Origin: Desulfoarculaceae bacterium
GTDB lineage: Bacteria; Desulfobacterota; Desulfobulbia; Desulfobulbales; Desulfocapsaceae
Length of the DNA: 59,625 nt
Reading direction: 5' to 3'
Assembly: GCA_019429465.1 (NCBI GenBank)
Contig: JAHYIV010000016.1
Location: 1-59,625 of the forward strand
The notes beneath the pieces are model-generated. The model had not been told where the DNA came from. It saw only the letters and a list, made by a program, of their open reading frames with translations, and searched no databases. A program made the position numbers and the translations under genes. Of this stretch, positions 31,085 through 53,651 are shown in pieces; position 1 is the first letter of the stretch; each line of letters opens with the position of its first letter.

Positions 31085-31224
31085 TTAAAAAAACGTGGCT
31101 CTGTTATGATCATTTATAGTGATCATGGCATCTGATTGCAACAATGTCTTTCCTCTTCTTTACATTTTGCTGATCATTGGCTAAAGTGCTGACCGATATC
31201 AGGTAATATGTCAGAAAGGAATTC

Positions 31225-31410
31225 TTCCGGTGTCGTCCTGATCTTCAGGGCGGTGAAAAGGGAATACGGTGCAAGACCGTAACGTTGGGCCAGCGCTGTA
31301 AACGGGGACAAGGACTGCATGATGTCACTGCCTGCCATTGCGGAAATTCCGGATGACGGGTGGGAAGGCGCGGTCTGAGGCTGATCCGTGAGTCAGAAGA
31401 CCTGCCGGAA
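31225..31410 (+). promoter_or_regulatory. Cobalamin riboswitch
   Basis: The segment has the conserved cobalamin aptamer blocks in order: closing stem TTCCGG (31225-31230) with CCGGAA (31405-31410); GGTGAAAAGGGAATACGGTG and GCAAGACCG; GCCAGCGCTGTAAACGGGGAC; TGTCACTG; GATGACGGGTGGGAAGGCGC; and the B12 box AGTCAGAAGACCTGCC (31391-31406). It is followed at once by an intrinsic terminator and then the ThiC-family gene. It should switch off transcription when adenosylcobalamin is abundant. It is not a TPP riboswitch: no CUGAGA/ACCUGAUC elements were found. Confidence 0.92.
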
Positions 31411-31434
31411 GAAAAAAGGAATTCTTGTCCGTAG

Positions 31435-36743: not shown

Positions 36744-37625
36744 TTGTACCCAGAATATCCTTTTTCTTCGCATTTCGCCACCGTTGATGGCCACCGTCTC
36801 CATTATCTGGATGAAGGGGTCGGGCCGGTCATCGTTATGGTGCACGGCAACCCGACCTGGTCCTATTATTACCGGCACCTGGTTGCCTTGCTTGCCAAGA
36901 CGCACCGGGTGATCGCCATTGATCATCTCGGCTGCGGTCTGTCCGACAAGCCCCAGAACTATCCGTATCGATTGCGGAATCATATTGATAACCTGGAGGC
37001 GTTGCTGCGTCAGATCCAGATCAGCTCCTATTCCCTGATTGTCCATGACTGGGGCGGGGCCATCGGCCTGGGGGTGGCGGGCAGGAATCCTGAAGCCCTG
37101 GAAAGGCTGGCGATCCTCAATACGGCCGCCTTCCGTTCGCAACGGATCCCGTGGCGGATCCGTCTCTGCCGCTGGCCTCTCATCGGCCCTCTGCTGGTCC
37201 GCGGTCTCAACGGCTTTGCCGCTCCCGCAGTCTTTATGGCCGTGACCAGCCGCCTGCGTCCGGAGGTGGCCAGGGCCTATCTGGCCCCTTATGATTCGTG
37301 GCGGAACCGGGTGGCAGTGTATGCTTTTGTCCGCGACATCCCGCTTGCCCCTGCGCATCCTTCCTACGGTACCCTGAAAGAGGTTGAAGAGGGGCTGCAG
37401 ACCCTGGCAGAGAGAGAACTCCCGGTCTGTATCTGCTGGGGCGGACGTGACTTCTGTTTTAATGATCACTTCTATCGGGAGTGGCGCCGCCGTTTCCCCA
37501 AGGCCGAATGTCATTATTTCAAGGAAGCCGGTCATTATGTGCTGGAGGATGCCCTGCCCGAGATCCGGCCGCTGCTGGAGGATTTTTTTGCAGGCGTCCC
37601 CTCATCCTCCGGGACTGGTGGCTGA
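36744..37625 (+). CDS. oleB: OleB-like alpha/beta hydrolase (beta-lactone decarboxylase)
   Basis: OleB decarboxylates cis-beta-lactones to cis-olefins, the last step of head-to-head hydrocarbon synthesis. It belongs to the haloalkane dehalogenase branch of alpha/beta hydrolases, which use Asp as nucleophile. The 293-residue product has the oxyanion motif HGNPTWSYYYRHL, the nucleophile D102 in HDWGGAIG, CWGGRDFCF and the catalytic His in GHYVLEDA near the end. The frame begins with TTG at 36744; an in-frame TGA just upstream excludes a longer start, and the beginning YPEYPFSSHFATVDG fits the family. No clear ribosome-binding site was found. It is the first gene of an oleBCD operon. Confidence 0.85.
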   Translation: MYPEYPFSSHFATVDGHRLHYLDEGVGPVIVMVHGNPTWSYYYRHLVALLAKTHRVIAIDHLGCGLSDKPQNYPYRLRNHIDNLEALLRQIQISSYSLIVHDWGGAIGLGVAGRNPEALERLAILNTAAFRSQRIPWRIRLCRWPLIGPLLVRGLNGFAAPAVFMAVTSRLRPEVARAYLAPYDSWRNRVAVYAFVRDIPLAPAHPSYGTLKEVEEGLQTLAERELPVCICWGGRDFCFNDHFYREWRRRFPKAECHYFKEAGHYVLEDALPEIRPLLEDFFAGVPSSSGTGG

Positions 37626-37627
37626 GT

Positions 37628-39253
37628 GTGAATATCGGCGAGCTTCTGGCTGAGAGGGCGGGTGATCAGGCCTGTGAGATCGGACTGGTGGAGGCGGCCA
37701 CGGGCCGACGATTAAGTTTTGGGGAGCTCAATGGTCGTGCCGATGGTCTGGCCTTTTATCTGCAGGCAGAAGGGGTGAGACCAGGGACGCGGGTGATGCT
37801 CATGGTCCGGCCCTCTGCTGATTTTATCTGTCTCACCTTTGCCCTGTTCAAGCTGGGGGCGGTGGTTATTCTCATTGATCCCGGCATGGGATACAGGAAT
37901 CTGCTGCGCTGTATTGCCGGTGTGCAGCCGCAGGTCTTTATCGGTGTTCCTGCGGCCCATCTGTTTCGCCTGCTTTTTCGCGCGCCCTTTCGTTCCGTTA
38001 TCCATTCCTTCTGCTGTGGCTCTTCCTGGGGACTCCTGGGACCGGATATCTGCAAAAAGGCAGGAATATCCCCTCAATCATTCACGGCCTATCCGGCGCG
38101 GGCCGATGAACTGGCCGCCATTATCTTTACCACCGGTTCCACCGGTCCGCCCAAGGGCGTGCGTTACGAGCATGGCGTATTCAATGCCCAGTTGCGGCTG
38201 ATCCGCGATTATTATCGGATCGGCCCAGGGCAGATCGATCAGCCGGGATTTCCCCTCTTTGCCCTCTTTGCCACGGCCCTCGGGGCCAGGGCCGTTATCC
38301 CGGACATGGATCCCACCCGGCCGGCCAGGGTCGATCCCCGGAAATTCGTCCGCTCGCTGCAGGAGGAGCAGGTGACCTATTCCTTCGGCTCGCCTGCCAT
38401 CTGGAATGTGGTCAGCCGTTACTGCCGGGAGCAGGGTATTGTCCTCGAGCACCTGCAGCAGGTACTCATGGCCGGGGCGCCTATTTCTGGTGACTTGATA
38501 GCCCGGATGCAGGCTATCCTGCCGCCCGGGGCCAGGATCCATACCCCCTATGGTGCCACCGAGAGCCTGCCCATTGTCTCCATGGAGGGCAAAGAGATCG
38601 TGCAGTCCACCTGGCCTCTGAGCCGTAAGGGGCATGGCATCTGTGTGGGCAGGCCGCTGCCGGGCATTGAGATTCGGGTGATCGCCCTCTCTGATGGACC
38701 TGTTCCACTCTGGGACGATTCCCTCTGCCTGCCGGATGGAGAGATCGGTGAAATCGTGGTGCGCGGTGATGTGGTGACGCGGGCCTATGAGAATAATGAT
38801 CAGGAAAACAGGATGGCCAAGATCAGGGACCAGGGTTCCTTCTGGCACCGGATGGGGGATCTCGGCTATGTCGATGCGCAGGGACGCCTCTGGTTCTGCG
38901 GCCGGCGCGCCCATCGGGTGGAGACGGAGGCCGGTACGCTTTTCACCATCCCCTGCGAGGCCATTATCAATGAACATCCCGATGTCGCCAGATCAGCACT
39001 GGTGGGAATTGATGATCCCGCCCATCCAGGGAGGCAGCTGCCGGTGATGATTGTTGAACCGGTCAGAACCAGGAAGATCAACAGGGACGGGCTGCTCACC
39101 CAGGTGCGGGAGCTGGCGGCAGCCTCTCCCTTTACTGCTTCCATACAGCTTTTTCTGACCCATCCCGATTTTCCGGTGGATATCCGCCATAATGCCAAGA
39201 TCTTCCGCGAGCAGTTGAGCGACTGGGCCCGCAAGCAACTGGGGGGGTGTTGA
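37628..39253 (+). CDS. oleC: OleC-like beta-lactone synthetase (AMP-ligase family)
   Basis: OleC activates 2-alkyl-3-hydroxyacids with ATP and closes them to beta-lactones. The 541-residue product is a member of the ANL adenylating superfamily with the P-loop FTTGSTGPPKGV near residue 168, GAPIS, TPYGATES near residue 300 and a core Asp in MGDLGYVD. The longer frame from 37481 overlaps oleB, so GTG at 37628, two bases after the oleB stop, was chosen; MNIGELLAERA is a natural beginning. Gene order (hydrolase, ligase, reductase) is what separates it from ordinary acyl-CoA ligases. It overlaps oleD by one base (TGATG). Confidence 0.88.
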   Translation: MNIGELLAERAGDQACEIGLVEAATGRRLSFGELNGRADGLAFYLQAEGVRPGTRVMLMVRPSADFICLTFALFKLGAVVILIDPGMGYRNLLRCIAGVQPQVFIGVPAAHLFRLLFRAPFRSVIHSFCCGSSWGLLGPDICKKAGISPQSFTAYPARADELAAIIFTTGSTGPPKGVRYEHGVFNAQLRLIRDYYRIGPGQIDQPGFPLFALFATALGARAVIPDMDPTRPARVDPRKFVRSLQEEQVTYSFGSPAIWNVVSRYCREQGIVLEHLQQVLMAGAPISGDLIARMQAILPPGARIHTPYGATESLPIVSMEGKEIVQSTWPLSRKGHGICVGRPLPGIEIRVIALSDGPVPLWDDSLCLPDGEIGEIVVRGDVVTRAYENNDQENRMAKIRDQGSFWHRMGDLGYVDAQGRLWFCGRRAHRVETEAGTLFTIPCEAIINEHPDVARSALVGIDDPAHPGRQLPVMIVEPVRTRKINRDGLLTQVRELAAASPFTASIQLFLTHPDFPVDIRHNAKIFREQLSDWARKQLGGC

Positions 39254-40245
39254 TGAAAAAGGTGCTGATTACCGGTGGCGGCGGTTTTGTCGGCCAGAAC
39301 ATTGTCCAACAGTTACGGGCCCGGGATATCGACTGTCTGGTGGTGGGGCGTCATTCCTATCCGGAGGTGGAGGCCCTGGGAGCTGCGGTTCGGCAGGGGG
39401 ATATCTGCGACCGTGAATTCATGCGGGAGTGCTGCCGGGGCAGGGATACCGTCTTTCATGTGGCAGCCCTGGCCGGGATCTGGGGGAGGTGGCGGGATTA
39501 TTATGCCACCAACGTCCTGGGCACCGAGAATGTCCTTGCCGGGTGCCGGGCGGAAGGCGTCAGCCATCTGGTCTACACCTCAACCCCGTCGGTGGTCTTC
39601 AACAGCCTATCCATCTGCAATGGTGACGAGCAACTGCCCTATACAGACCGCTTTCTCTGTCATTATGCCAGGAGCAAGGTTATGGCCGAGCAGCTGGTCC
39701 TGGCCGCATCGGATCAGCACCTGCGCACCTGCGCCATCAGACCGCATCTGGTGTGGGGGCCAGGCGATCCCCATCTGATTCCACGGCTTATTGACAGGGG
39801 ACGAAAAGGGCAGCTCAGGCAGGTGGGAGAGGGGCAGAATCTGGTCGATATCTCCTATGTCGATAATGTGGCCCATGCCCACCTGCTGGCGGCCGACAAT
39901 CTGGAGGGAATCGGGACGGCTGCCGGGCAGGCCTATTTTATCAGTCAGGGTGAGCCGGTGAACCTGTGGCAGTGGATTGGCGATCTTTTTACCAGGCTTG
40001 ACATTGCGCCGGTACGAACTAAAGTCTCTTATCCGGCAGCCTATGGGATCGGTGCCCTGTTTGAAGGAGTTTACCGATTGGCCGGTTGGCGGAAGGAGCC
40101 GCAAATGACCCGTTTTCTGGCGCAGCAGCTTGCCAAATCGCACTATTTTTCCATTGCCCGGGCCAGGCGTGATCTCGGTTATCAACCACTTGTCTCAATA
40201 GAACATGGGGTGGAGCGTTTACTCGCATCACTGGTGATAAAATGA
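39253..40245 (+). CDS. oleD: OleD-like NAD(P)-dependent 2-alkyl-3-oxoalkanoate reductase
   Basis: OleD reduces the 2-alkyl-3-oxo acid made by OleA to the hydroxy acid used by OleC. The 330-residue extended short-chain dehydrogenase has TGGGGFVGQN at residues 7-16, a DAL-type segment replaced by GDICD, STPSVVFN, and the catalytic pair Y138 and K142 (HYARSKVMAEQ). PHLVWGPGDP and FISQGEPVNLW follow the 3-beta-HSD/sterol-type family pattern. Start ATG 39253 overlaps the oleC stop. Its own stop overlaps the start of the protease gene in ATGA, so all four genes are probably one transcript. Confidence 0.88.
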   Translation: MKKVLITGGGGFVGQNIVQQLRARDIDCLVVGRHSYPEVEALGAAVRQGDICDREFMRECCRGRDTVFHVAALAGIWGRWRDYYATNVLGTENVLAGCRAEGVSHLVYTSTPSVVFNSLSICNGDEQLPYTDRFLCHYARSKVMAEQLVLAASDQHLRTCAIRPHLVWGPGDPHLIPRLIDRGRKGQLRQVGEGQNLVDISYVDNVAHAHLLAADNLEGIGTAAGQAYFISQGEPVNLWQWIGDLFTRLDIAPVRTKVSYPAAYGIGALFEGVYRLAGWRKEPQMTRFLAQQLAKSHYFSIARARRDLGYQPLVSIEHGVERLLASLVIK

Positions 40246-42494: not shown

Positions 42495-43568
42495 TTACAG
42501 GGAAGAGAGTTTGCTCTTGGCCTGCCCGGCCTCGGGACTGGAGCCATAAGAGCTGATAATCTTTTGATAGATGATCTTGGCGGTTTCCTTGTCCGAGAGC
42601 TGCTCAAAGGCCATGGCCTGTTTGAGCAGGGCGGCAGGCGTTTTCGCATGTTTCGGCTGGCTGGAGATGATCTTTTGATACTGGAGGATAGCCTGATCAT
42701 ATTCTTTTTGCTGGTAGAGAGACTCGCCCATCATGTAACGGGCCTGGACGCCCTTGGTGCCGCTGCCGTCTTTGTCGATAGATGATTCAAACAGCTCATA
42801 GGCATCCTGGTAATTTCCGGCATCGTATTTCTGTTGGGCCTGATTGAAAAGGTCGTCAGCAGGCGAGGCAACAGCCGCAGGCGCTAGCGGATCCTCTTTT
42901 GGGGCTGGTGATGATGTGACAGCAACAGGATCCTCAGAACTCAGCTCAGATGGATCTGGTTCTGCTGGCGGTGGCGGTGCCGGCAAGGTTACGGGCGGGG
43001 TGCTGGCTTCCACTCTCGCCGGTGCAGGTGTCTGGGCCTTGACCACTTTCTGCTGTTCAGCCTGGAGATGGATAATGGACTGGTTGCTTCCTGTCGTTTT
43101 CACCTTTAACCTTGCCGCTTCAGCCGCCTCGGCGGCAGCCCTGGCCCTGCGTTCTGCTTCTTGTACCCGAGCAGCCTGGAGGGTCGTCACATGGTCCTGT
43201 TGTTGTCTGAGCTGCTCATTGAGCTGGCTTATCTTGATGTCGGTCTCAGAGGATTGTTTGGAGACAATTCCCTGGAGTGAGGATTCCAGCGCCTTGTTTT
43301 GTTGCTGAAACTGACGATTGACAGCTGCTGTTGCCTCAAGTTCACTCTTCAGTTCCAGGATCTCCTGTTGCAGTTCGCTTAACTGTCCCGATGAAGAGGC
43401 CTGTTTTCTCTGTATCTCGCCAACTGTATTGGCCTGCAAATCCTCAACTTTTTTATTGACAGCCCGTAATTGATAGGACAGGAGCCTGACCTCATCCTGC
43501 GTAGCACATTGAATAAGAAAAGGACTCACGGAGACAAGGAAAATGAGAGTAAAAAGAGATTTCTTCAT
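42495..43568 (-). CDS. cpoB: CpoB/YbgF-like Tol-associated coiled-coil TPR protein
   Basis: CpoB coordinates PBP1B and the Tol system during division. The 357-residue protein has a signal sequence ending in PFLIQC-ATQ; the Gln before Cys is atypical for a lipobox, so lipidation is uncertain. It has a long coiled coil (residues 30-135), a Pro/Ala-rich linker with two PPPPAEP-like stretches (to about 230), and TPR repeats at the C-terminus (DDLFNQAQQKYDAGNYQDAYELFE, ARYMMGESLYQQKEYDQAI, ALLKQAMAFEQLSDKETAKI). It is much longer than the 263-residue E. coli protein because of the linker. It follows tolB directly, where pal usually lies. Confidence 0.88.
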   Translation of the reverse strand: MKKSLFTLIFLVSVSPFLIQCATQDEVRLLSYQLRAVNKKVEDLQANTVGEIQRKQASSSGQLSELQQEILELKSELEATAAVNRQFQQQNKALESSLQGIVSKQSSETDIKISQLNEQLRQQQDHVTTLQAARVQEAERRARAAAEAAEAARLKVKTTGSNQSIIHLQAEQQKVVKAQTPAPARVEASTPPVTLPAPPPPAEPDPSELSSEDPVAVTSSPAPKEDPLAPAAVASPADDLFNQAQQKYDAGNYQDAYELFESSIDKDGSGTKGVQARYMMGESLYQQKEYDQAILQYQKIISSQPKHAKTPAALLKQAMAFEQLSDKETAKIIYQKIISSYGSSPEAGQAKSKLSSL

Positions 43569-43605
43569 GGCAGATACCTGTTGAATGATATTTTTTTAAA
43601 AAATA

Positions 43606-44904
43606 TTATTTTTTAGAGGACCAGCGGGGAGAGGTCTGGTTGCCTTTTATTGAGAAAATTTGCCGCTGATACGAGCCGTTTTTCAGGACTGCGAAAATGT
43701 TTTGGCTGTTTCCGACACGTTTTGAGAAGATCAGTTGTCTTCCATCTGGAGACCAGTCTGGTGACTCGTGGTGACCTGAATCCTTGGTAACCTGAAAGGG
43801 GGTGGCACCTTCTTGAAGAGCGATGGTGTAGATCTGGTATGAACCATTGGTCAGGCTGGAATAAGCCAGAAGATCACCCTTGGGAGACCAGGATGGCTCG
43901 GCATTTTCGGTGCCCTTAAATGTAAGCCTTTTGACATTTTTAGTGTTGAGGTCCATGAGATAGATCTGTGGTCTGCCGCTGCGGTCAGAGACAAAGGCGA
44001 TTGTTCTGCCATCGGGTGACCAGGCTGCCGAGACATTGATTCCAGCACGTCTGGTAAGTTGTTCCAGGATGTTGCCCTGGCGGTCAAGCAGGTAGAGATC
44101 AGGATTCCCATCCTGGCTCAGGGTCAGTATCATTCGTTGCCCATCCGGCGACCAGGCAGGGCCGAGATTCATGCCCTTTTTTCTCGACAGCACCTGAGTC
44201 GAGGTGCTCTGGTTGAGATCGGTGATGTAGAGATTCTGGTTGCCTTTATGATAGGAGACGTAGCTGAGACTCTGGCCGTTCGGGGTGAAACGGGGTGAGA
44301 CCACTAGATTTTTATGGCGGGTGACTTGCCTTACCTTGTCGCCCAGGATGTTTGTCAGGTAAGCCTCTTTGACGCCGGTACTGTCTCCAATAAAGGCGAT
44401 CTGGCTGGAGGCGATTCCCTGTTCTCCGGTGAGTTCCTTGATGACGCTGTCACAGAATTTAAAAATTATTTCCTGCCTCTGTTCCGTTGTTCCCGTATAT
44501 TGTTTACCCAGGATCATATCACCCCCTACTACATCGAGGAGGCGCATCTCAAAATTGACCCCTGATGGGGACATGGAATAACTGCCAAGGATGGTGTAGT
44601 CAGCGCCCAGCTGTTTCCAGTCAGGAGTTCTGGCGCCGGAGTAGCTTTGATTGGTAATAATGGAGATGATGCCATGAAACTCCAGTGCTTTTTCCAGGGT
44701 GTCGGCCAGTTCGCGGCCAAAGGTCTGTGACTCACCGGACTGTGATGAGTTGGTAAACCAGGGCACGGCCATATTGATTTTCCGTGATCCCGAGGCGGTA
44801 ATGTCAAGATAGACCTTGGCCTCTGCCTGCACGGATTGGACGGTGCAGCACAGGATCAGGAAGACACCAAGAAAGAGGGAAAAGGTGGAACGTATTGTAT
44901 TCAT
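43606..44904 (-). CDS. tolB: Tol-Pal system periplasmic protein TolB
   Basis: TolB is the periplasmic link of the Tol system, normally cycling between Pal and TolA. The 432-residue product starts with a signal peptide (FSLFLGVFLILCCTVQSVQA) and an N-terminal alpha/beta domain (ELADTLEKALEFHGI, LGADYTILGSYS). The C-terminal beta-propeller consists of repeated blades (SFAWSPDGQ-type: PAWSPDGQRMILTLS, SAWSPDGRTIAFVSDRSG, PSWSPKGDLLAY, PDWSPDGRQLIFS). It lies 79 bases after tolA and 37 bases before cpoB on the same strand. No Pal-encoding frame is present on either side. Confidence 0.95.
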   Translation of the reverse strand: MNTIRSTFSLFLGVFLILCCTVQSVQAEAKVYLDITASGSRKINMAVPWFTNSSQSGESQTFGRELADTLEKALEFHGIISIITNQSYSGARTPDWKQLGADYTILGSYSMSPSGVNFEMRLLDVVGGDMILGKQYTGTTEQRQEIIFKFCDSVIKELTGEQGIASSQIAFIGDSTGVKEAYLTNILGDKVRQVTRHKNLVVSPRFTPNGQSLSYVSYHKGNQNLYITDLNQSTSTQVLSRKKGMNLGPAWSPDGQRMILTLSQDGNPDLYLLDRQGNILEQLTRRAGINVSAAWSPDGRTIAFVSDRSGRPQIYLMDLNTKNVKRLTFKGTENAEPSWSPKGDLLAYSSLTNGSYQIYTIALQEGATPFQVTKDSGHHESPDWSPDGRQLIFSKRVGNSQNIFAVLKNGSYQRQIFSIKGNQTSPRWSSKK

Positions 44905-44983
44905 GAGGCGATGCAGGGGTAGAAGGAAAAATAAGTAAGGATCATAAAATTATAGAAAACTATACCATTGATGGATTGAAAAA

Positions 44984-46009
44984 TCACTGAATTCCGCTTG
45001 GCTTGAAACGAAGTCCCACATCAATGCGCTGCTTCTGCAGGGCTGGCGGTGGTGCTGGCAGGGGATTAGCAGCCTCCAGGGTTTTGAGGACAAATTGGTC
45101 AAAAAGCCTGTCTCCTGATTCCTGCTCAAAAAGCTGGTTGACGATCTGGCCATCGGTGGCAATGGTGATGCTGACCACCGCCAGAAGATTGGGATCCCAG
45201 GTCTTGATGTCGGGTGGCTGCCAGTACTGCTGTATGTGGCCCATAATTGTCGCATAATACTGTTGTTCTAGTATGCCCATGCTTTGCGCATTACTGCTGG
45301 ATTGAGAGGATGCCGCCCGCGATTCGCTGGCACTGGTTGTGGTTCGAAGCTGCTCTCGCAGGGCGTTCTTGGCGTCTGCCGCTGCCATTCTGGCCTCTAA
45401 ATCCAAGCGCCTGGCCTCCTCACGGGCCGCCGCCAGTTGCCGCTGCTGTCTGATGGTTTCCTGGGCAGCCGCTTCTCTTTTTGCTTCCTGTTGTGCTTCT
45501 TCCTGGAGCTTTTTGGTGATATTCTTTAATTCTTCTTTGCGAATTCTGGCATCTTCAGCCCTGGTGTCAGGAATCTTCTTGGTCTCTTTTTTAAGTTTTT
45601 GTTTTAATGGTTTGATCGATATGGCCTCAGCCGGAGCCGGGGGTGCTGCCGGCTCCGGCGCCACTACCGGCTCTGGAACCGGGACCGGCGGAGGGGTGTC
45701 CACGGGAGGAGGAGTCTGTTTTATAACCTGCGGCTTGATTATTTCAGCAGGTTTGGGAGGCGCAGGAGTCGCAGGAGGCGCTGTTTCCAGCTTCGCCGCC
45801 TGTTTAGCCGCGGCCGGGGGGGCTGCTGGTTGGTTCTGGGCCGCGGGTTCTTCCATGTTGACCATTTCAATGGTGGTCACTTCCGGCAGAATGGTCCGCT
45901 GATCCAGGAGACCAGGCAGAACCATGGCGCCTAACAGGACAAAAAGATGGAAGCCGACTGCCAGACTGAGTGGCAGCTTCCACTCGCTGGGCAGGGTATG
46001 TGTAAACAT
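44984..46009 (-). CDS. tolA: TolA/TonB-like envelope energy-transducing protein
   Basis: TolA spans the periplasm and carries proton-motive energy from TolQR. The protein has one membrane anchor near the N-terminus (LPLSLAVGFHLFVLLGAMVL), a Pro/Ala-rich region (PAPPKPAEII, PPPVDTPPPVPVPEPVVAPE), a long charged helix (KKLQEEAQQEAKREAAAQE) and a C-terminal TonB-type domain (YYATIMGHIQQYWQPP, LAVVSITIATDGQIVNQLF). The frame is open from TTG at 46042, overlapping tolR; ATG 46009 was preferred because it gives a short cytoplasmic tail. GTG 46024 is also possible. The operon context makes TolA more likely than TonB. Confidence 0.88.
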   Translation of the reverse strand: MFTHTLPSEWKLPLSLAVGFHLFVLLGAMVLPGLLDQRTILPEVTTIEMVNMEEPAAQNQPAAPPAAAKQAAKLETAPPATPAPPKPAEIIKPQVIKQTPPPVDTPPPVPVPEPVVAPEPAAPPAPAEAISIKPLKQKLKKETKKIPDTRAEDARIRKEELKNITKKLQEEAQQEAKREAAAQETIRQQRQLAAAREEARRLDLEARMAAADAKNALREQLRTTTSASESRAASSQSSSNAQSMGILEQQYYATIMGHIQQYWQPPDIKTWDPNLLAVVSITIATDGQIVNQLFEQESGDRLFDQFVLKTLEAANPLPAPPPALQKQRIDVGLRFKPSGIQ

Positions 46010-46025
46010 AAGTTTCTGAGACACG

Positions 46026-46454
46026 TTACTGCTTTTCTTCAATGGGTTTGGTGATCATTCCCAGCTTGATAAATCCTGCCGCCTTGATGTCGGCCATGAC
46101 GGAGGCTACATCGCCATAGGCGACATTCTTGTCAGCCTTGAGCAGAATGAGTTCTTCTTTTCCCTTTGCCTCGAATATCTTGGCCAGTTGATCGCGAAGG
46201 ACGGGCTGGGTGTATTCAATCTTGCCCAGCGTGATCCTGCCATCCTTGTCAAGGCTGACAACCTGAGGCTCCTCTTTCTGCCGCAGAGAACTGGCGGTGG
46301 TTTCCGGCAGATCCACTTCAAGTCCCTGGGTCATCATCGGGGCCGTCACCATGAAGATGATGAGCAGCACCAGCATGACATCCACCAGAGGGGTCACATT
46401 GATATCGGCAACCAGTCCTCTTGATCCATTGCCCCTGTTTGATCCCATTCCCAT
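46026..46454 (-). CDS. tolR: TolR/ExbD-family biopolymer transport protein
   Basis: TolR forms the proton channel with TolQ. The 142-residue protein has a short N-terminal tail, one membrane helix with the essential Asp (DINVTPLVDVMLVLLIIFMV, Asp near residue 27 of PLVDVM), then the periplasmic domain (LPETTASSLRQ, VSLDKDGRITLG, ILLKADKNVAYGDVASVMADIKAAGF). This is the complete TolR/ExbD layout. It lies between tolQ and tolA on the same strand. Confidence 0.95.
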   Translation of the reverse strand: MGMGSNRGNGSRGLVADINVTPLVDVMLVLLIIFMVTAPMMTQGLEVDLPETTASSLRQKEEPQVVSLDKDGRITLGKIEYTQPVLRDQLAKIFEAKGKEELILLKADKNVAYGDVASVMADIKAAGFIKLGMITKPIEEKQ

Positions 46455-46470
46455 TTTGTTCGTGTCCAGT

Positions 46471-46540
46471 TAAAAAAAAATTACGAATTACGAATTACGA
46501 ATTAAAAAAAACAGACGAATTGTAATTCGTAATTCGTCAG
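46471..46540. repeat. Short tandem and inverted AT-rich repeat between tolQ and tolR
   Basis: Three copies of TTACGAA in tandem (from 46480) are followed, after an A-rich spacer, by the inverted TTCGTAATTCGT. The arms can form a long AT-rich hairpin in the 86-base tolQ-tolR spacer. In an otherwise tightly packed operon this might be a simple-sequence expansion or an mRNA stability element. Confidence 0.6.
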
Positions 46541-47251
46541 TTATCCGCGGCCAATCATGTCGCGTTCAACAAGGTTGAGAAAATCGGTGGAGAAATTCTG
46601 CATTTCGCCGTCGATATAGGTCAGTTTATTAGCGAAAAAATTATAGAAGATAACCGCCGGAATGGCCACGGCAAGGCCGGCGGCCGTGGCGATCAAGGCC
46701 TCGGAGATACCAGGGGCGACAACGGCCAGAGAGGCGGATCCGCGCATGCCGATATCATGAAAAGAGGCCATGATACCCCAGACCGTACCAAAAAGACCGA
46801 TAAAGGGAGCGGCGCTGCCGGTGGTCGCAAGAAAGGGCAGGTATTTCCCCATTTCAGTGATCTCCTGGGATTCCGCTTTGCGGATGGCGCGTTTCAGATT
46901 GTCCATGGTGGCCATCTGCATATCCAGAGTTTCCTGCTGATTGCTGCCATCCTTACCATCTTTACGGCTGCGGATCTTGTTGATTTTCTGCAGCTCAGTA
47001 AAGCCAGCCGAAAAGAGAGTAGCCTCAGGACTGTACTCATATTCCTGGGCCGTGTCATAGGCATCGCTGAGCTTGCTTGAAGACCAGAAGGCCTCCAGAA
47101 AATCCTGGGTGTCGGTGGCGACTTTTTTGAACAGGCGGGCCTTTATGAAGACAATGGACCAGGAAATTACGGAAAAAAGAAGGAGGACAAACATGACCAG
47201 TTGTCCAACTGGACCGGCATGTAAGATCATATTGGTGATAGAGAGTTGCAC
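46541..47251 (-). CDS. tolQ: TolQ/ExbB-family proton channel protein
   Basis: TolQ is the multi-pass membrane component of the Tol motor. The 236-residue product has membrane helix 1 (LVMFVLLLFSVISWSIVFIKA), a cytoplasmic loop with a charged stretch, and helices 2 and 3 (LPFLATTGSAAPFIGLFGTVWGIMASF and GISEALIATAAGLAVAIPAVIFYNFF), which carry the conserved Thr and Glu/Pro pattern of the family. The start is GTG at 47251 (MQLSITNMILHAGPVG). It is the first gene of the tolQRAB-cpoB-tlyA series. Confidence 0.95.
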   Translation of the reverse strand: MQLSITNMILHAGPVGQLVMFVLLLFSVISWSIVFIKARLFKKVATDTQDFLEAFWSSSKLSDAYDTAQEYEYSPEATLFSAGFTELQKINKIRSRKDGKDGSNQQETLDMQMATMDNLKRAIRKAESQEITEMGKYLPFLATTGSAAPFIGLFGTVWGIMASFHDIGMRGSASLAVVAPGISEALIATAAGLAVAIPAVIFYNFFANKLTYIDGEMQNFSTDFLNLVERDMIGRG

Positions 47252-47505: not shown

Positions 47506-47718
47506 TCAACTGTTGGCTTCTGTGTCTGCTCTATCCTGCCAGGCATCAAGCTGGTCTGTATAGACATCAACTGAAGAAATCATTCCGCAACCCGTGCAGA
47601 CGGCCTTGACCTTGTGTCAGCGCCCGTGCAGGCCCACCTTTCTCTGATTACAGTAAGCACAGATGAAGAGAGGTTCGTTGGAGTTCAAGACTGCTGACCG
47701 GGTGGCATTGCTGTTCAT
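47506..47718 (-). pseudogene. Small zinc-ribbon protein interrupted by in-frame TGA
   Basis: Reading from ATG 47718, which overlaps the stop of the dehydratase gene in ATGA, the frame runs 70 codons to TGA at 47506-47508 but has an internal TGA at codon 34 (47617-47619). On both sides the sequence is protein-like: FICAYCNQRKVGLHGR before and HKVKAVCTGCGMISSVDVY after, giving the pairs C20/C23 and C41/C44 of a zinc ribbon. The simplest reading is a TGG-to-TGA mutation (Trp between Arg and His). Selenocysteine is possible in principle but no convincing SECIS hairpin was seen. The coupling with the upstream gene shows that it belonged to the lipid cluster. Confidence 0.6.
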
Positions 47719-48167
47719 GGTCGCAGGGTTTGGGTCATGGTGCAGGAAAAATCAACCTGAACAGCGATCTTTTCCTTGACCCGCAGGATACCTTTCAAAA
47801 ACCAGGACCCGGCAATTTTTTCCTTTAGATGTACCTGCATCTGGATAGTGCTGCCCGGACCCACGGGACGCTTAAAGCGAGCCCCGCTAATCCGGGTGAG
47901 AACAGGGAAGCCCTGGCTGGTCTCGTTTGCGTCTTGTAACATCCTGGCAATCAGCAGGGCGCCGGTTTGAAACAGGGCCTCGCAGAGGATCACCCCTGGA
48001 AGGATAGGCTGCTCGGGATAATGCCCTTTGAAGATGTCCAAGTCTTCAGGGATGGTCTTTTCAGTCACCATGGTTCCATCCTCATAGCTGATGATGCTGT
48101 CAATCCAGAGGAAGGGTGGCCGGTGGGGAATCAGCCCAGTGATGAGCGGGTCAATGATCATGGTCAT
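47715..48167 (-). CDS. FabZ/FabA-like 3-hydroxyacyl-ACP dehydratase
   Basis: A 150-residue hotdog-fold dehydratase, which removes water from 3-hydroxyacyl-ACP. The active-site His is in IPHRPPFLWID and the catalytic acid is in PGVILCEALFQTG, preceded by FKGHYPEQPIL. It keeps both FabZ signature regions but differs in detail from housekeeping FabZ, for example in the LISGLIPHRPP start and the SWFLKGI segment. It follows the ketoreductase without a gap, TAA touching ATG, and overlaps the zinc-ribbon frame. It probably serves the same specialised acyl chain as its neighbours. Confidence 0.88.
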   Translation of the reverse strand: MTMIIDPLITGLIPHRPPFLWIDSIISYEDGTMVTEKTIPEDLDIFKGHYPEQPILPGVILCEALFQTGALLIARMLQDANETSQGFPVLTRISGARFKRPVGPGSTIQMQVHLKEKIAGSWFLKGILRVKEKIAVQVDFSCTMTQTLRP

Positions 48168-48908
48168 TTATAAGCCTCCATTGATTTCCAGCACGGCACC
48201 GGTAATGTAGGAGGCCTGGCGGCCGGCTAGAAAGAGAACCGCGTCCGCCACTTCCTCCGCCGTACCGAAACGGCGCATGGGGACCAGCTTTTTATAGGCC
48301 GCCACTTGTTCAACGCTCAGATCATTGAGGAGATCAGTGGCAATAAACCCAGGCGACACGCAGTTGACGGTGATTTTCTTGCGGGCAGTTTCCCTGGCCA
48401 GGCTCCTGGTCATGCCGATCTGTCCTGCCTTGGAGGCCGCATAGTTTGCCTGACCGGCAAAACCGAGATGGGCGACCGGCGAGGTGATATTGATGATCCT
48501 GCCGTATTTCTGCTTCATCATCAGCAATACCGCCTGTTTGGACATGTGAAAGGTGCCGGTGAGGTTGATGTCAATCACCTGCTGCCAGTCTTTGCTGTCC
48601 ATGAGGGCCAGGAGCCCGTCACGGCGGATTCCGGCATTGTTGATCAGGATGTCAATAGTGTCAAACTCTTCTTCGACCTGGCGAAAGAACTCCTCGACCT
48701 GGCTGCCGTCCGCAACATCGCACTGGTGAAGCTGCAGCCTGTCGCCAAACGGATGGCATTCTTCGGCAAAGGTCCTGGCAGCCTCACTGTTGCTGCCATA
48801 GATGCCGATGACCGTGGCGCCGGCCTTCAGAAAGGCCAGACTGATGGCTCGGCCCAGACCCCGGCTGGCGCCGGTGACAACAACTTTCTGATCAGTAAAT
48901 GATGTCAT
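48168..48908 (-). CDS. FabG-like 3-oxoacyl-ACP reductase
   Basis: A 246-residue classical short-chain dehydrogenase that reduces 3-oxoacyl-ACP. It has the cofactor motif TGASRGLGRAI near residue 13, NNAGIRRDG, and the catalytic Ser, Tyr and Lys in ITSPVAHLGFAGQANYAASKAG (Ser near residue 141, Tyr near 154, Lys near 158), then PGFIATDL. It matches FabG throughout. It is placed after the first CrtI-like gene (9-base gap) and directly before the dehydratase, giving a ketoreductase-dehydratase pair for chain elongation. Confidence 0.92.
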   Translation of the reverse strand: MTSFTDQKVVVTGASRGLGRAISLAFLKAGATVIGIYGSNSEAARTFAEECHPFGDRLQLHQCDVADGSQVEEFFRQVEEEFDTIDILINNAGIRRDGLLALMDSKDWQQVIDINLTGTFHMSKQAVLLMMKQKYGRIINITSPVAHLGFAGQANYAASKAGQIGMTRSLARETARKKITVNCVSPGFIATDLLNDLSVEQVAAYKKLVPMRRFGTAEEVADAVLFLAGRQASYITGAVLEINGGL

Positions 48909-48917
48909 AACCTTTGA

Positions 48918-50324
48918 TTATACACTGCGGATATAGCTGTCAACATCATTGGAGACGATGACCCCGTAATTGATTGCCCCGAGCCAGCCGGACATGATGA
49001 TTCCCACTGAGCCGACATGAAAGAGCCCGGGTACCTCTTTGAAAATGGACCGGGACACTGCAAGGCCCTCGAATTTGGTACCGAATGAGGTGCCGTGGGT
49101 ATGCAGGGTGTAACGGTTAAAGGTCTTGGGCGTTGCCGCCTCCAGCCAGTCAATTTTTTCGTTTACCCCGGGGAAATAACGGTTCAGATCCACCAGGGTC
49201 CGCTCGATGAGGGCCTTCTTTTCGGTTTCATAGGCGGTCGGGCTGAGACTGCTCCAGTCTCCAAAGCGGCTGTTCATGGAGGCGACAATGGCGAATCGAT
49301 CGTGGCCTGGTCGTGTCTTTGGATAATAAACCGAAAAAGTCTTTGAGTGGGTGTGCATGTCGAGCAATTCTGAAGAGTCAAAGACGGGCGCGGTGGAGGT
49401 GAAGAGGAGATCACCCTTGTCCTCGATGGATGAATCTTTTTTCAGGCCGATATAGACCTGGCAGCTGGAGTTGTTAACGCGAATGGCATCGGCTTTTTCC
49501 AGGAAGTCGCTGGAAAAGACATCCCGCCCCGCCAGATTATAGATGGTGTTGGTAATGCCGCTGTTGGAGACCACTGCCGGGGCGGTGATCACCCTGCCGT
49601 TCACCTCAACGCCGCGCACCTTGCCTTTTTCCACCAGAATCCGCTCCACCTTGGCGTTGGTGCAGATCATTACCCCGTTTTTTTCCAGGTCTTCGGTCAT
49701 CATCCGGATGAGTTTATCCGTGCCGCCTTCAAAGGTGAAGACCCCCTTGTTCATGAAGTTGGAGAAGACGATGCCGTAGGTGATGGCCGGATCGTCAAGG
49801 GTGGAACCGTTGGCGTAGGTGATGGGTTCCATGAGCAGGCGATGCACATCCGTTCTGCCGGGGAAGAATTGTTCGAACAGTTCCCGGGTGGTCATGGTCT
49901 GGTCATCATAAAAGTTCATGCCGGCGACGGTGGCGAAGAAGCGGTCGATGACTGTCTGCGGGATCTTGAATTTTTTGTTCAGCAGTGCGGTGAAGTCAAG
50001 CCGGTCAAAGGTGGTCTGCAGAGAAAACTGGGGGTTGTCAAAGACGATATTCCTGAGCTGGACAATGGAGTCGGTGATTTCCCTGGTCCAGTATTTTTTG
50101 CAGGTCTTGACCATGCCGTAGGGAAAGCCATGCAGGGAGATATCGAAGATATGGCCTTTTCTCTTGAACCAGGTGGCGAGGCCTCCAAGCTGGTGGTGAA
50201 ATTCCAGGAGCAGGACCTTGTGGCCGCAATAAGACAGGCGTTTGGCCGTGGTCAGGCCGCCCAGGCCGGAGCCAATTACAATCACATCGTAGCTGTCAGC
50301 AGCTTTATCTAAAGAAAAGGGCAT
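48918..50324 (-). CDS. CrtI/phytoene-desaturase-like FAD oxidoreductase 1
   Basis: A 468-residue flavoprotein of the phytoene desaturase / carotenoid isomerase type. The FAD-binding motif is [26 protein letters not shown] at residues 16-41, followed by [21 protein letters not shown]; the middle has [10 protein letters not shown], and the C-terminal FAD-closing motif is [22 protein letters not shown]. Such enzymes desaturate or isomerise polyenes. No phytoene synthase or other carotenoid gene is present; the neighbours are acyl-chain enzymes, so the substrate is probably an acyl-ACP or a derived lipid. It is a divergent paralogue of the next gene. Confidence 0.85.
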
Positions 50325-50355
50325 GGGGGCGATCTGTTGAAGTTTGCTTATCTGC

Positions 50356-51801
50356 TTAGAATCGGGACAGAATATGTCTGTTGACCATTGAGACGCCGCT
50401 CAGCATGGAGCCGACAATACCTAAAAAACCCTGGTCGGTGCCGGCAAGAAAGAGATTGTGGTAGCCTATGTCGCCATTCTTGATTTTGTCAGGGCAACCA
50501 TAAATAGCGCCTTCTTTTTTGGCAGTAAAGCGTTCTATGGTTAGAGGAGTAAAGGTATCCTCATATACAATATCCTGCCTGAAATTACCAATGATTTTCT
50601 CTAGTGCCAGTTTTGAACAGCTGGCTGTGTCCTTTTTGGCCGCAAGGTAGGCGGGCCTGTCAGCGGCAAGAGACTTCCAACCGCTATAATCGGCAAGATG
50701 GGTGGCGCGAACTTCAAGGTGAGGTGGGGCGTCAAGCCCCTGAAAGTTGCCAGGAAAGCAGATAACGCCGCTGTTGTAATCAACGCGATTTTCGGGCCGC
50801 TGATAGTGAAATTTATCGTTGGTGTTGTAAAAAATAATCGTTTTATCCAGTGGGAGAGTCTTTCTGCAATCCGCGGGCAGTCGGAAGATGGACTCGACAA
50901 AGCCAAGCCGGGGGTGCTGACTTGGCACCGGCGGAACAGTGAGAACAGCCAGGGTCTCTTCATGGCCAATAGTTGAGATCAAGGTGTCACAGGTGATCAC
51001 CTCGCCGTCGGTCAGCTCCACGCCAGTTACCTTTCTGTTCTGGTGGATGATTCTGGCCACAGGGGCCTGCAGGCGGATCTTGCCGCCAAATTCCCGATAC
51101 TGTCTGAGCAGGATCTCGAGAAAATCCTTGATGCTACCCTCCGGCCGGAACATTCCTTCCAGGAAGATCGCCCGGAACATGATGACAAATTGGCCCAGAT
51201 CCATATCGTTTTCCACGCTTGAGCCGTAATACATCAAGGGACAGAGCAGCATATCGACTAAAAGCGGATCATCAAGGGCAGAGGTCAGCAGGATTCTGGC
51301 CGAGCGAAAGGGCACGCTCTGGAATGGATCATATTCCTTGATGATCCGGAGCAGCCGGGTGAATCCGGCTGCGCTGCGGGGGAATTTTGTCACTATCTCA
51401 TGGTGCAGCAGACCGAAATCGTTGCTGAAACTCAGTATCTCCTGGTTGGCAAAGAAGATTTCACTTTTGATCTGTTCGTGAAAGGTGAAGTCCCGGCGCC
51501 GTAGTTTCAGCTGGCGGAACAGGCGGTTGAGCGGCGCGGTTTTATCCTGGGGCGGGGCAAAATTGGTGATGGCGTGGAGGCCGGTCTCAAACAGGGAGTT
51601 GTGGCGGTAATAATAGGAGTTGAGGCCACCGACGCGGGAGTGTTTTTCCAGGATCAGGACGTCTGGATTGAAACGGGCGAAACGAATTGCGGCGGCCAGT
51701 CCCGAGAGACCGCCGCCGATGATCAGCAGGGGAACGTGCACCGGATGTGCTTCTTTAGACGTTCTTGAGGAGTGGTTCAAGGTAGTTAGCGCAGCTGTCA
51801 A
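50356..51801 (-). CDS. CrtI/phytoene-desaturase-like FAD oxidoreductase 2
   Basis: A 481-residue second flavoprotein of the same superfamily. FAD motif [20 protein letters not shown] is near residue 25, with [17 protein letters not shown] and ETGLHAIT; the C-terminal motif is [21 protein letters not shown]. The first 20 residues are a weak leader. Its start overlaps the acyl carrier protein gene by 47 bases, so the true start may be somewhat later, but ACP and this gene are tightly linked. Tandem CrtI-like genes beside an ACP are unusual outside proposed ladderane and similar lipid clusters. Confidence 0.85.
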
Positions 51802-52006
51802 GGGAGGCCAGTTGCGGATAATCTTCTTCAGGGATCTGCAGTTTGTGCCGTTTGCGGAGTTCCATCACGATATCAAGAAAATCCATGGAATCAAGATCCA
51901 GCTGGTCACGCAGTGGCTGGTCGGATTGCAACGTGTTGAAATCGGCATCTTCGTCAATATCTTTGATTATCTCCAGAATGAGATCTTTAATAGCAGCACG
52001 GGTCAT
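51755..52006 (-). CDS. Acyl carrier protein
   Basis: An 83-residue acidic helical carrier protein. Phosphopantetheine attaches to Ser40 in the LDLDSMDFLDIV motif, the counterpart of DSLD in AcpP. DSMDF in place of DSLDT marks it as a specialised carrier rather than housekeeping AcpP. The helices IKDLILEIIKDI and [12 protein letters not shown] frame the fold. It lies between the ketosynthase gene (403-base gap) and the second CrtI-like gene, and presumably carries the growing chain for the cluster enzymes. Confidence 0.9.
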   Translation of the reverse strand: MTRAAIKDLILEIIKDIDEDADFNTLQSDQPLRDQLDLDSMDFLDIVMELRKRHKLQIPEEDYPQLASLDSCANYLEPLLKNV

Positions 52007-52057
52007 ATTGTCTCCAGATTCGATCTTTTACTAAAAGAGTGATTTTTGTTTCAATCC

Positions 52058-52133
52058 TAACCCCGATGAACGGGATAAGTGCCTTACAGATTATTTTCTT
52101 GCAAAAAAAAAGGAAATAATCTGTAAGGCACTA
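52058..52133 (+). repeat. Hairpin repeat family B, copy 2
   Basis: This 76-base segment matches the reverse complement of 3487-3566, including the flanking CCCCGATGAACGG block. Its hairpin is AGTGCCTTACAGATTATTT against AAATAATCTGTAAGGCACT with an A-rich loop. It lies in the gap between the ketosynthase and acyl carrier protein genes, where it would act as a stem-loop in a polycistronic message if the cluster is one transcript. Confidence 0.75.
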
Positions 52134-52409
52134 AATTTGCCATCATCCGGTATTCGGACGTCAATACAGATACATCTGCTGCGTCGACTGCACGGATTTT
52201 ATTTTCAAGGCTGCACAATTACGTCTGTGCTGAAATCCGCTGGCATTCTTGCATATGATCCTGTCTTGACACACTTGATGCTCGAATGATAGCACAACTC
52301 AGGTCTATTATTATGCATAGCATGGTCGGAATGAGAATGTTTGTCAGGCAAAACTTTCTTTATACCATACATTGCCACTCTTTTTCATATGTTTTTTTGA
52401 TACGTCCCT
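52134..52409. other. Intergenic region without recognisable gene
   Basis: The stretch between the family B hairpin and the ketosynthase gene has no convincing reading frame. It contains CGGATTTTATTTT and ACAATTACGTCTGTGCTGAAATCCG, whose ends can pair (CGGATTT / AAATCCG), and a T-rich part near 52380. It may be leader sequence for the acyl carrier protein and desaturase genes. No promoter was assigned. Confidence 0.35.
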
Positions 52410-53651
52410 TTATCCCACGTATTTTTTCACAATAATAACGGAATTGACCCCAACCATGCCAAAGGAGTTGTTGAGAATGGTGGATACGGACTTCAGCTGT
52501 GTCGGTTTGTTGAGGACCATATTGGACAGGGCGCATTCTGGGTCAAGGTTGGTGACATTGATAGTGGGATGAACCATGTTATCTTCAAAGGCCGGCAGAT
52601 TGCCGGCAAGTTCAAGTACGCCGGCGGCCCCCATGGCATGACCAATGATGGATTTGGTATTGTTGATATAGGTGGATGGGGCCTCACCAAAGACCTGGCG
52701 GATGGCCTTGCACTCTTCTATATCTCCCTGCCTGGTTCCGGTGGCGTGGGTGTTGATGATATCAATATCGGCAGGTTTAAGCCCGGCGCGACTCAAGGCC
52801 TGCTGGATACATTCCGCCTGCCTCTTGCCATAGGGGAGTACAAAATCACGGGCATCGGAGTTGATGCAGTAACCGACAAGCTCGCCATAGATCTTGGCCC
52901 CGCGTTCAAGGGCCTTTTCCAGCCGTTCCAGGACGTAAATGCAACCCCCTTCGGAAACCACAATCCCGTTTCTTCCCATGTCAAAGGGTCTGCAGGCCAG
53001 GCGCGGGTCTTCTGCCTCGGCGAGTGCCCCCTGGGCCTTGAAACTGGCAAATATACCGAAAGAGCCGGTTGATTCGGATATACCGCCGGCCAGGGCCATA
53101 TCAACTTCGCCAAGACGGAGCATCTGGACACCCTGAATCAGAGAGGCATTGCCGGCGGCGCAGGCCGCACCAATGGCATAATGAGGGCCGGTGATCCCAA
53201 GGCTCATGGTGATCTCACCTGCGGGATTGTTGAGAACAGTTCGGGGGTTATGGTGGTGGGTCCAGTATTTTACGTCATAATTGTACTGGCTGATATTGAA
53301 GATCTCGTTTTCTGTCTCAACGGTACCATGCTCGGTAAGACCGACATAAACGCCAATACGGGATCGGTCATAGTAGTCAATATCAAGGCCTGCGTCGCTC
53401 ATGGCCTCGTGGGCGCAATACACACCAAGGCAACCGGCGCGGCTGCCCCGTTTGTTTTCCTTTTTTTTCCGGTATCTGGTTTCGTCAAAGGTGCAGATCC
53501 CCGCGGGTGCCGGGCCAAAATAGCGGAGATTGATCTTTTTGATCTCACTGATTCCGGCAAGAAGTTTCCTGCGAAAATCCTTGAGATTGTCTGCGTTTGG
53601 TGCGGCCAGGCCGATCCCGGTTATGACGATTCTCTGTTGATGAGTATTCAT
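52410..53651 (-). CDS. FabF-like beta-ketoacyl-ACP synthase
   Basis: A 413-residue thiolase-fold condensing enzyme of the KAS II type. The catalytic triad is intact: Cys in GAACAAGNASL near residue 165, first His in NTHATGTRQGD near residue 303, second His in SIIGHAMGAAG near residue 340. The N-terminal motif is VITGIGLAAPNADNLKDF. It differs from housekeeping FabF in the AAPNADN segment and in the EVDMALAGGISES region. It is the first gene of the leftward cluster, so it probably sets chain extension for the specialised product. OleA-type chemistry is excluded by the FabF-type triad. Confidence 0.92.
   Translation of the reverse strand: MNTHQQRIVITGIGLAAPNADNLKDFRRKLLAGISEIKKINLRYFGPAPAGICTFDETRYRKKKENKRGSRAGCLGVYCAHEAMSDAGLDIDYYDRSRIGVYVGLTEHGTVETENEIFNISQYNYDVKYWTHHHNPRTVLNNPAGEITMSLGITGPHYAIGAACAAGNASLIQGVQMLRLGEVDMALAGGISESTGSFGIFASFKAQGALAEAEDPRLACRPFDMGRNGIVVSEGGCIYVLERLEKALERGAKIYGELVGYCINSDARDFVLPYGKRQAECIQQALSRAGLKPADIDIINTHATGTRQGDIEECKAIRQVFGEAPSTYINNTKSIIGHAMGAAGVLELAGNLPAFEDNMVHPTINVTNLDPECALSNMVLNKPTQLKSVSTILNNSFGMVGVNSVIIVKKYVG

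Follow-up and report, generated by a model that had tools for sequence, protein, structure and literature searches.

Gene content of the locus

The DNA analysed here (the window) is a stretch of 59,625 nt of contig JAHYIV010000016.1 from a Desulfocapsaceae genome (2.84 Mb, 94.8% complete; hereafter the own genome). The minus strand at positions 47,506-53,651 carries the gene set under study, which we refer to as the module: genes of type II fatty acid synthesis (FASII) arranged around two CrtI-like flavoproteins, FAD1 and FAD2, and followed by a small zinc-ribbon gene. The module was found to be linked with ole genes in this window and in its relatives, and it probably supplies polyunsaturated acyl chains to the enzymes OleABCD. 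Its β-ketoacyl synthase (KAS), acyl carrier protein (ACP) and four further biosynthetic proteins are encoded as follows.

52410..53651, minus strand: KAS, FabF-like, 413 aa, first gene of the module (Pfam PF00109/PF02801)
51755..52006, minus strand: dedicated ACP, 83 aa (PF00550)
50356..51741, minus strand, reading frame open from 51801: FAD1, CrtI-like flavoprotein, 461 aa (PF01593)
48918..50324, minus strand: FAD2, CrtI-like flavoprotein, 468 aa (PF01593)
48168..48908, minus strand: FabG-like 3-oxoacyl-ACP reductase (TIGR01830, 296.7 bits, cut-off 297.75)
47715..48167, minus strand: FabZ-like dehydratase with His and Glu motifs (PF07977, TIGR01750)

A preliminary description of this DNA had presented the genes as a single leftward series forming a dedicated acyl-chain cluster. 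All of them do lie on the minus strand, and a single transcript is not certain because a gap of about 400 nt between KAS and ACP holds a 23-nt inverted repeat (52078-52132, 96% complementary, 9-nt loop), for which a terminator, an attenuator or a mobile remnant are candidate natures. No repeats of at least 14 nt were found between KAS and its upstream gene. The start of FAD1 is probably the GTG at 51741 rather than the TTG at 51801, which falls within the ACP gene, because homologues begin near the former.

The KAS, ACP and FabG of the module are distinct from the housekeeping copies of the same genome. The module KAS scored 312 bits with TIGR03150, under the cut-off of 493.75, and its 25 rows formed one clade (100/99), outside which lay the own FabF and six anammox KAS; the ACP scored 30 bits with TIGR00517 and the FabZ 104.8 bits with TIGR01750, well under the cut-off of 155.15. 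FabG, which matches the housekeeping FabG at 48.6%, falls just 1 bit short of the housekeeping-model cut-off. Because of these low scores, and because an ordinary FabG, ACP and FabF sit together on another own contig, C21 (328, 107.6 and 656 bits with the same models), we regard the module as a second set, dedicated as the preliminary description had held. Active-site motifs were well kept in the fetched stretches, some of which overlap each other: the KAS Cys in 49/49, His in 48/49 and Lys-His in 49/49, the ACP Ser in 45/51, and the FabZ His and Glu in 61/62 and 54/62, respectively. The best match to a dedicated FabI within the 27% of the own genome examined was of 28%.

The paired flavoproteins

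In a tree of 65 flavoprotein rows, FAD1 (25 rows from five phyla) and FAD2 (26 rows from six phyla) each formed one clade with support of 100/100, and seven anammox rows together with four CrtI rows of plasmid origin, one of which has phytoene synthase and crtY as neighbours, fell outside both. FAD3, a flavoprotein of own contig C5 and its relatives, stands on long branches in this tree, and the program warns of long branches and of a possibly false FAD1-FAD2 join; neither has a bearing on the exclusion of the anammox rows. With the CrtI rows outside both clades, the flavoproteins do not group with carotenoid desaturases; such grouping was part of the outcome that the preliminary description had set against its own proposal.

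FAD1 and FAD2 share with the carotenoid enzymes CrtI and CrtISO an FAD-binding domain and a predicted fold. Their AlphaFold2 models (pLDDT 92.5 and 87.5) match gamma-carotenoid desaturase and CrtI, the nearest solved folds in Foldseek being 4rep, 4dgk and 3ka7 for FAD1 and 4rep and 3ka7 for FAD2. Identity to 4rep and 4dgk in the structure alignments is only 14-20%. The Foldseek comparison supports a CrtI-like fold and nothing narrower. Among curated models, carotenoid isomerase scored highest for both proteins, with 70 and 113 bits (cut-off 587). The setting also differs from that of CrtI and CrtISO, as the neighbours are FASII genes and the phytoene synthase domain PF00494 had 0 matches in the own genome (positive in 7 of 14 control genomes), in line with the preliminary description. 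A carotenoid pathway was rejected on these grounds, namely the grouping apart from CrtI and the missing PF00494 match.

Distribution and gene order of the module

The core comparison set comprised 58 genomes, the own one and 57 relatives. FAD1 was detected in 49 of them at E<=1e-10, one (G043) giving a weak match only, and FAD2 in 87 of 93 Desulfocapsaceae genomes at E<=1e-60 (53 of the 54 good ones). Scanning named genomes with a FAD2 alignment yielded at least 565 relatives; the best 80 were taken on, and these included proteins from Planctomycetota, Nitrospinota, Chloroflexota, an Opitutaceae metagenome-assembled genome (MAG) and a Muiribacteriota MAG. The fetched loci amounted to about 127 distinct stretches after a crude 200-base identity filter, with some duplicates remaining (L106/L122).

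FAD1 directly precedes FAD2 in 106 of the 109 stretches holding both. The arrangement KAS-ACP-FAD1-FAD2-(FabG)-FabZ-FabI was seen in Planctomycetota, Nitrospinota and Chloroflexota, with FabG frequently not detected in the planctomycete modules, while the Opitutaceae and Muiribacteriota MAGs showed part of it on stretches that start too late to show KAS. As this gene order, which the preliminary description had suggested looking for in relatives, recurs through the bacterial order (Desulfobulbales) and in other phyla, the arrangement is not due to chance. Departures from it were also observed. One family of the order, f2 (L053, L061), has ACP, FAD1 and FabZ (KAS in L053) without FAD2, FabG or OleC, adjoining genes that by eye resemble the menaquinone pathway. 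One genome (G157; L098, L099) carries two additional FAD2 paralogues, around which none of the other module genes was visible.

Linkage with ole genes

The preliminary description had missed a set of ole genes on the plus strand of the same window, which face the module across Tol-Pal genes and point to a polyunsaturated hydrocarbon.

36744..37625, plus strand: OleB-like hydrolase (haloalkane-dehalogenase models below their cut-offs; named by similarity and by position, the gene recurring in OleABCD runs of relatives)
37622..39253, plus strand: OleC, olefin beta-lactone synthetase, exact start unsure (NF006754, 658.7 bits, cut-off 478)
39247..40245, plus strand: OleD, 2-alkyl-3-oxoalkanoate reductase (NF042423, 384 bits; NF042422, 375 bits)

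The OleB-like hydrolase is a candidate beta-lactone decarboxylase, judged by position and similarity. OleA is encoded on another own contig, C37, and the own genome therefore encodes OleA, OleB, OleC and OleD, with the named-enzyme models for OleC (NF045786, 523.7 bits, cut-off 900) and OleD (both cut-offs 580) below threshold. The Cys123, His and Asn columns of OleA were invariant in 34/34 rows, some from overlapping stretches. His and Asn are catalytic residues of OleA. A role for a Cys123 has been described (PMC6463001; this and the other papers are cited here from excerpts).

The linkage of module and ole genes was found in six arrangements overall. Within Desulfocapsaceae, OleBCD faces the module across Tol-Pal in the window and in L106, and OleD-OleC was seen in other members. 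Seven further families of the bacterial order (f3, f6, f7, f9, f12, f13 and f15) have FabI and OleA directly after FabZ, and the run continues with OleB and OleC in five (f3, f6, f9, f12 and f15), four of which also showed OleD; it was not seen beyond OleA in f7, the contig ends in f13, and an f12 genome, G047, carries FabI-OleABCD at another place. In Desulfogranum japonicum (L158) the run could be followed as far as OleC, at which point the contig stops. Family f41, outside the order but within the phylum, has OleABCD lying between its FAD1 and FAD2 genes (L096, L101). Three Chloroflexota (L166, L183, L188) have OleA just before KAS, two Planctomycetota (L176, L186) have OleC-OleD in that place, and the Opitutaceae MAG (L181) carries OleA-OleB after FabI. 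An ole gene was visible in 42 of the ~127 stretches, many of which are too short to show or exclude one; many comparison genomes are also incomplete.

The three Chloroflexota with OleA upstream of the module gave no OleC match in the genomes searched, and their modules possibly end at a polyunsaturated ketone.

Co-occurrence with OleC, OleA and PfaA

A locus of FAD1-FAD2 type is present in 46 of the 58 core genomes (45 with both genes seen; G023 at a contig edge). OleC exceeded its cut-off in all 46 of these as against 2 of the 12 genomes lacking the pair, G039 and G055 (Fisher p 1.3e-9, kinship ignored), and OleA did so in 44 of the 58, 41 of them pair holders. In a sample of 296 genomes of the phylum, each at least 90% complete, FAD2 was found in 16, OleC in 35 and both in 13, so that OleC accompanies 13/16 FAD2 holders and 22/280 others. 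Outside the order the figures were 4/7 and 22/276 (p 0.0016, kinship ignored). In an additional set of 26 genomes with FAD2, of which 24 belong to other phyla, OleC was found in 19.

PfaA of the polyunsaturated fatty acid (PUFA) megasynthase Pfa exceeded the TIGR02813 cut-off in 0/58 genomes, with at most 4 candidates scored per genome, and the own genome had no match at E<=1e-60. On this cut-off, with weaker matches present in 11 of the 58 genomes, Pfa was rejected as the source of the acyl chains. The pair-less genome G055 (L109) has OleC and OleD together with long PfaA-like frames below the cut-off; here Pfa perhaps takes the place of the module.

Proposed pathway

Acyl synthases linked to oleABCD are known from Pfa systems. 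In Shewanella, OleABCD joins two Pfa-derived 16:4 chains head to head to make the C31:9 hydrocarbon hentriacontanonaene (PMC6463001, PMC4882568), OleA seeming to take the 16:4 from an ACP (PMC6463001), and Geobacter bemidjiensis, with pfa and ole genes in tandem, makes C31:9 as well (PMC4882568, PMC3098273). The present locus shares the linkage and differs in having no PfaA over the cut-off, its place being held by discrete type II enzymes together with the flavoprotein pair. Another member of the family to which the window genome belongs, Desulfotalea psychrophila, makes C31:8 and C31:9 hydrocarbons (Rattray 2009, PMC2649909). According to the excerpted text of that paper it has no Pfa and no other known PUFA pathway, and its FASII clusters contain consecutive CrtI-like genes, DP2405 and DP2406; an anaerobic PUFA route was proposed for it. 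Rattray 2009 tied these clusters, which bear out the mention in the preliminary description of related sets in sulfate reducers, to ladderane genes, and OleA goes unmentioned in the paper. Because of the Pfa-Ole systems and the C31 polyenes of D. psychrophila made without a known PUFA pathway, the module can be said to occupy the place that Pfa has in other systems.

We therefore propose, with a probability of about 0.72, that the module is a stand-alone, oxygen-independent type II polyunsaturated acyl-ACP synthase feeding OleABCD. The dedicated KAS, FabG and FabZ would elongate a chain on the dedicated ACP, and FAD1 and FAD2 would introduce or re-place cis double bonds in it. They might do so in the manner of CrtI, abstracting hydrogen adjacent to a double bond already present, or else by a redox-neutral isomerisation in which the double bond made by FabZ is retained, in the manner of CrtISO and the Pfa dehydratases. 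OleA would condense a pair of these chains head to head, and its product would then be converted by OleD, OleC and OleB to a long polyene; by analogy, two 16:4 chains would yield C31:9. A fuller version of the proposal is advanced tentatively, as we place it somewhat short of even odds: a discrete O2-free type II PUFA synthase, with no Pfa megasynthase or O2-dependent desaturase, in which skipped cis double bonds are placed by the two flavoproteins while the chain is carried on ACP; with FAD2 in at least six phyla (Desulfobacterota, Planctomycetota, Nitrospinota, Chloroflexota, Verrucomicrobiota and Muiribacteriota); feeding OleABCD, or OleA alone in Chloroflexota to give a polyunsaturated ketone; and followed in many Desulfocapsaceae by a new zinc-ribbon selenoprotein.

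Several points weigh against the proposed synthase. Gene content, conserved catalytic motifs, ole linkage, co-occurrence and the lack of a PfaA over the cut-off are observations, whereas the product and the chemistry of the flavoproteins are inferred, and the equation of DP2405/DP2406 with FAD1/FAD2 rests on numbering and family, not alignment. The isotope argument made for D. psychrophila does not single out the module locus, and a radical S-adenosylmethionine (SAM) locus of that organism could matter. The Fisher tests ignore kinship between genomes. OleA exceeded its cut-off in only 41 of the 46 pair holders, the other five having none (G002, G005) or fragments (three). FAD2 stands without OleC in 7 of the 26 further genomes, namely in 4/4 Chloroflexota, three of them having OleA, in one Planctomycetaceae and in two Deltaproteobacteria MAGs, and likewise in G121, G157 and G386. 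Conversely, 22 of the 35 OleC genomes of the phylum lack FAD2, and G039 has OleA and OleC without FAD1, from which it follows that Ole does not need the module. PfaA-like matches below the cut-off (E<=1e-60) were present in 11/58 genomes, 7 of them module holders, G054 reaching 797 bits.

Alternative explanations

The module might instead supply membrane phospholipids or lipid A with acyl chains that are polyunsaturated or modified in another way, the Ole linkage being incidental or secondary. The adjacency of Tol-Pal genes in the family, the genomes with FAD2 and without OleC, and family f2 (L053), which keeps KAS, ACP, FAD1 and FabZ without FAD2 or OleC, speak for such a role. We nevertheless consider it unlikely, given the repeated ole linkage in different arrangements, the 46/46 co-occurrence with OleC and the lack of an acyltransferase among the six module proteins.

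It is still less probable that OleABCD receives ordinary chains (saturated, monoene or branched) from the module and that the flavoproteins carry out another step, reduction or proofreading for example. The CrtI-like superfamily also includes saturases and amine oxidases. Amine oxidases occur among the fold matches, and Ole systems elsewhere use housekeeping FASII chains (PMC6463001). Against this stand the C31:8 and C31:9 hydrocarbons of D. psychrophila, which is of the same family, and a dedicated set would be unneeded for ordinary chains since housekeeping FASII genes are present.

A ladderane-type or other cyclised lipid, in which a flavoprotein-made polyene is cyclised as proposed for anammox bacteria, was the comparison drawn in the preliminary description, and we find it very improbable. 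The module does resemble the anammox sets (kuste3603-3608 and kuste3335-3352) in content, FabF, FabZ, ACP and a CrtI-like flavoprotein being common to them (PMC2649909, PMC4790861), and a locus on own contig C5, where by eye a flavoprotein, KAS and ACP are accompanied by two radical-SAM-like genes, looks like kuste3335-3352. However, the anammox sets have a single flavoprotein and the module a pair, their flavoproteins and tested KAS fall in other clades, and they include radical SAM enzymes and a non-canonical FabF; no radical SAM protein was found among the six module proteins (Pfam), nor by eye among the neighbouring reading frames. Both types of anammox flavoprotein, those of kuste3607 and kuste3336, are excluded from the FAD1 and FAD2 clades (7 rows, under the long-branch warning above), for which reason the module is probably not a ladderane pathway. 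For a search beyond the tree, 24 anammox-like genomes were chosen from 392 Planctomycetota through the hydrazine synthase alpha domain (HZS_alpha, PF18582). This domain is not exclusive to anammox bacteria, being matched in 76/392 genomes, and the choice was made by eye (1-2 copies, mostly in frames of ~810-844 aa), with some candidates left out. The FAD2 profile reached at best 104 bits in the 24 genomes and gave no match in two, whereas full-length FAD2 orthologues elsewhere in the phylum scored at least 546 bits (in a single-protein search, scored otherwise than the profile). One anammox-like genome (G516) holds two stretches with the gene order of kuste3603-3608 and kuste3335-3344, anammox loci being recognised by gene order against a table of PMC4790861. 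The excerpted literature adds that an expression test of two anammox flavoproteins gave no lycopene (PMC4790861) and that ladderanes were not found in D. psychrophila (PMC2649909). Likeness to the anammox sets as kinship was thus rejected by the tree and the profile search. The C5 locus (L237, C5 68000-87760, at ~6.6-18.2 kb), where a glycosyltransferase and an acyltransferase-like gene were also recognised by eye beside the genes already named, is a better match to the kuste3335-3352 set than the module is.

The least probable alternative is a non-carotenoid pigment such as an aryl polyene or a flexirubin-like compound: such clusters also use KAS, ACP, ketoreductase and dehydratase, and the module FabG scores 253 bits with FlxB, but this is below the 340 cut-off and below the 279 bits of the housekeeping FabG, the six module proteins include no methyltransferase, acyltransferase or second KAS, and the Ole linkage also stands against it.

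A candidate selenoprotein downstream of FabZ

Between FabZ and TolQ lies a short gene with an in-frame stop codon, which the preliminary description had taken for a zinc-ribbon remnant.

47506..47718, minus strand, UGA at 47619-47617: small zinc-ribbon protein, candidate selenoprotein (conserved in-frame TGA)
47584..47600, minus strand, 16 nt after the UGA: conserved hairpin, possible bacterial selenocysteine insertion sequence (SECIS)

The gene is conserved. Sixteen distinct loci matched a pattern that includes the in-frame stop; these alone would be circular, since the pattern demanded a stop, and tblastn without that requirement added three more distinct loci (L025, L029, L164), all with TGA. 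All 19, which come from Desulfocapsaceae, carry TGA at the same codon, and no homologue with Cys or another codon at this site was found by tblastn. In the 16 sequences the third codon position is the most frequent position of differences both before the TGA (970/2023) and after it (1390/2918). One Cys is lost in L025, a frameshift lies upstream in L029, and no zinc-ribbon gene was seen in L055, L063, L132 and L133. A degenerate gene was rejected, as the tblastn homologues all keep the TGA, and the product is probably a selenoprotein, possibly of an unrecognised family. No Pfam family exceeded its cut-off for the protein, and no such selenoprotein family was found in the excerpted literature searched, including a 2026 review, which is no proof of novelty.

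The hairpin has 7 pairs with 90.2% of cells paired and shows little covariation (two-sided change in one pair, 2/19), so that as a SECIS it is suggestive. No tRNA-Sec was found in ~775 kb (27%) of the 2.84-Mb own genome, and a simple pattern for a UGA-containing selD returned nothing; D. psychrophila is known as a selenocysteine decoder (PMC1794560). A redox role of the protein in flavoprotein or thiol maintenance is a guess.

Neighbouring features

The genes between the module and OleBCD are neighbours outside the proposed pathway and are kept beside the module within Desulfocapsaceae.

42495..47251, minus strand: Tol-Pal genes, named by eye

Farther off, a cobalamin riboswitch (RF00174, 100 bits) lies at 31211-31423 on the plus strand; right after it, at 31425, comes a frame that by eye resembles ThiC.

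Implications for the Desulfocapsaceae and other anaerobes

An anaerobic polyunsaturated route in D. psychrophila had already been proposed (Rattray 2009, PMC2649909), and a 2023 paper remarked on ole genes of Deltaproteobacteria, Planctomycetes, Verrucomicrobia and Nitrospina (PMC10176705). New as far as the literature searched goes, which included few subscription papers, are the coupling of the flavoprotein-FASII module to the ole genes, both physical and phyletic, the spread of the module, the finding that it is distinct from the anammox genes, and the selenoprotein candidate. The locus offers a concrete candidate pathway for the C31:8 and C31:9 hydrocarbons of D. psychrophila, set apart from the anammox genes, and cultured carriers of the module are at hand in Desulforhopalus vacuolatus, Desulfosediminicola flagellatus and Desulfogranum japonicum. 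If the proposal is true, small separate enzymes would make polyunsaturated chains without oxygen in several anaerobic and marine lineages, which would bear on lipid biomarkers, membrane physiology and enzyme engineering.

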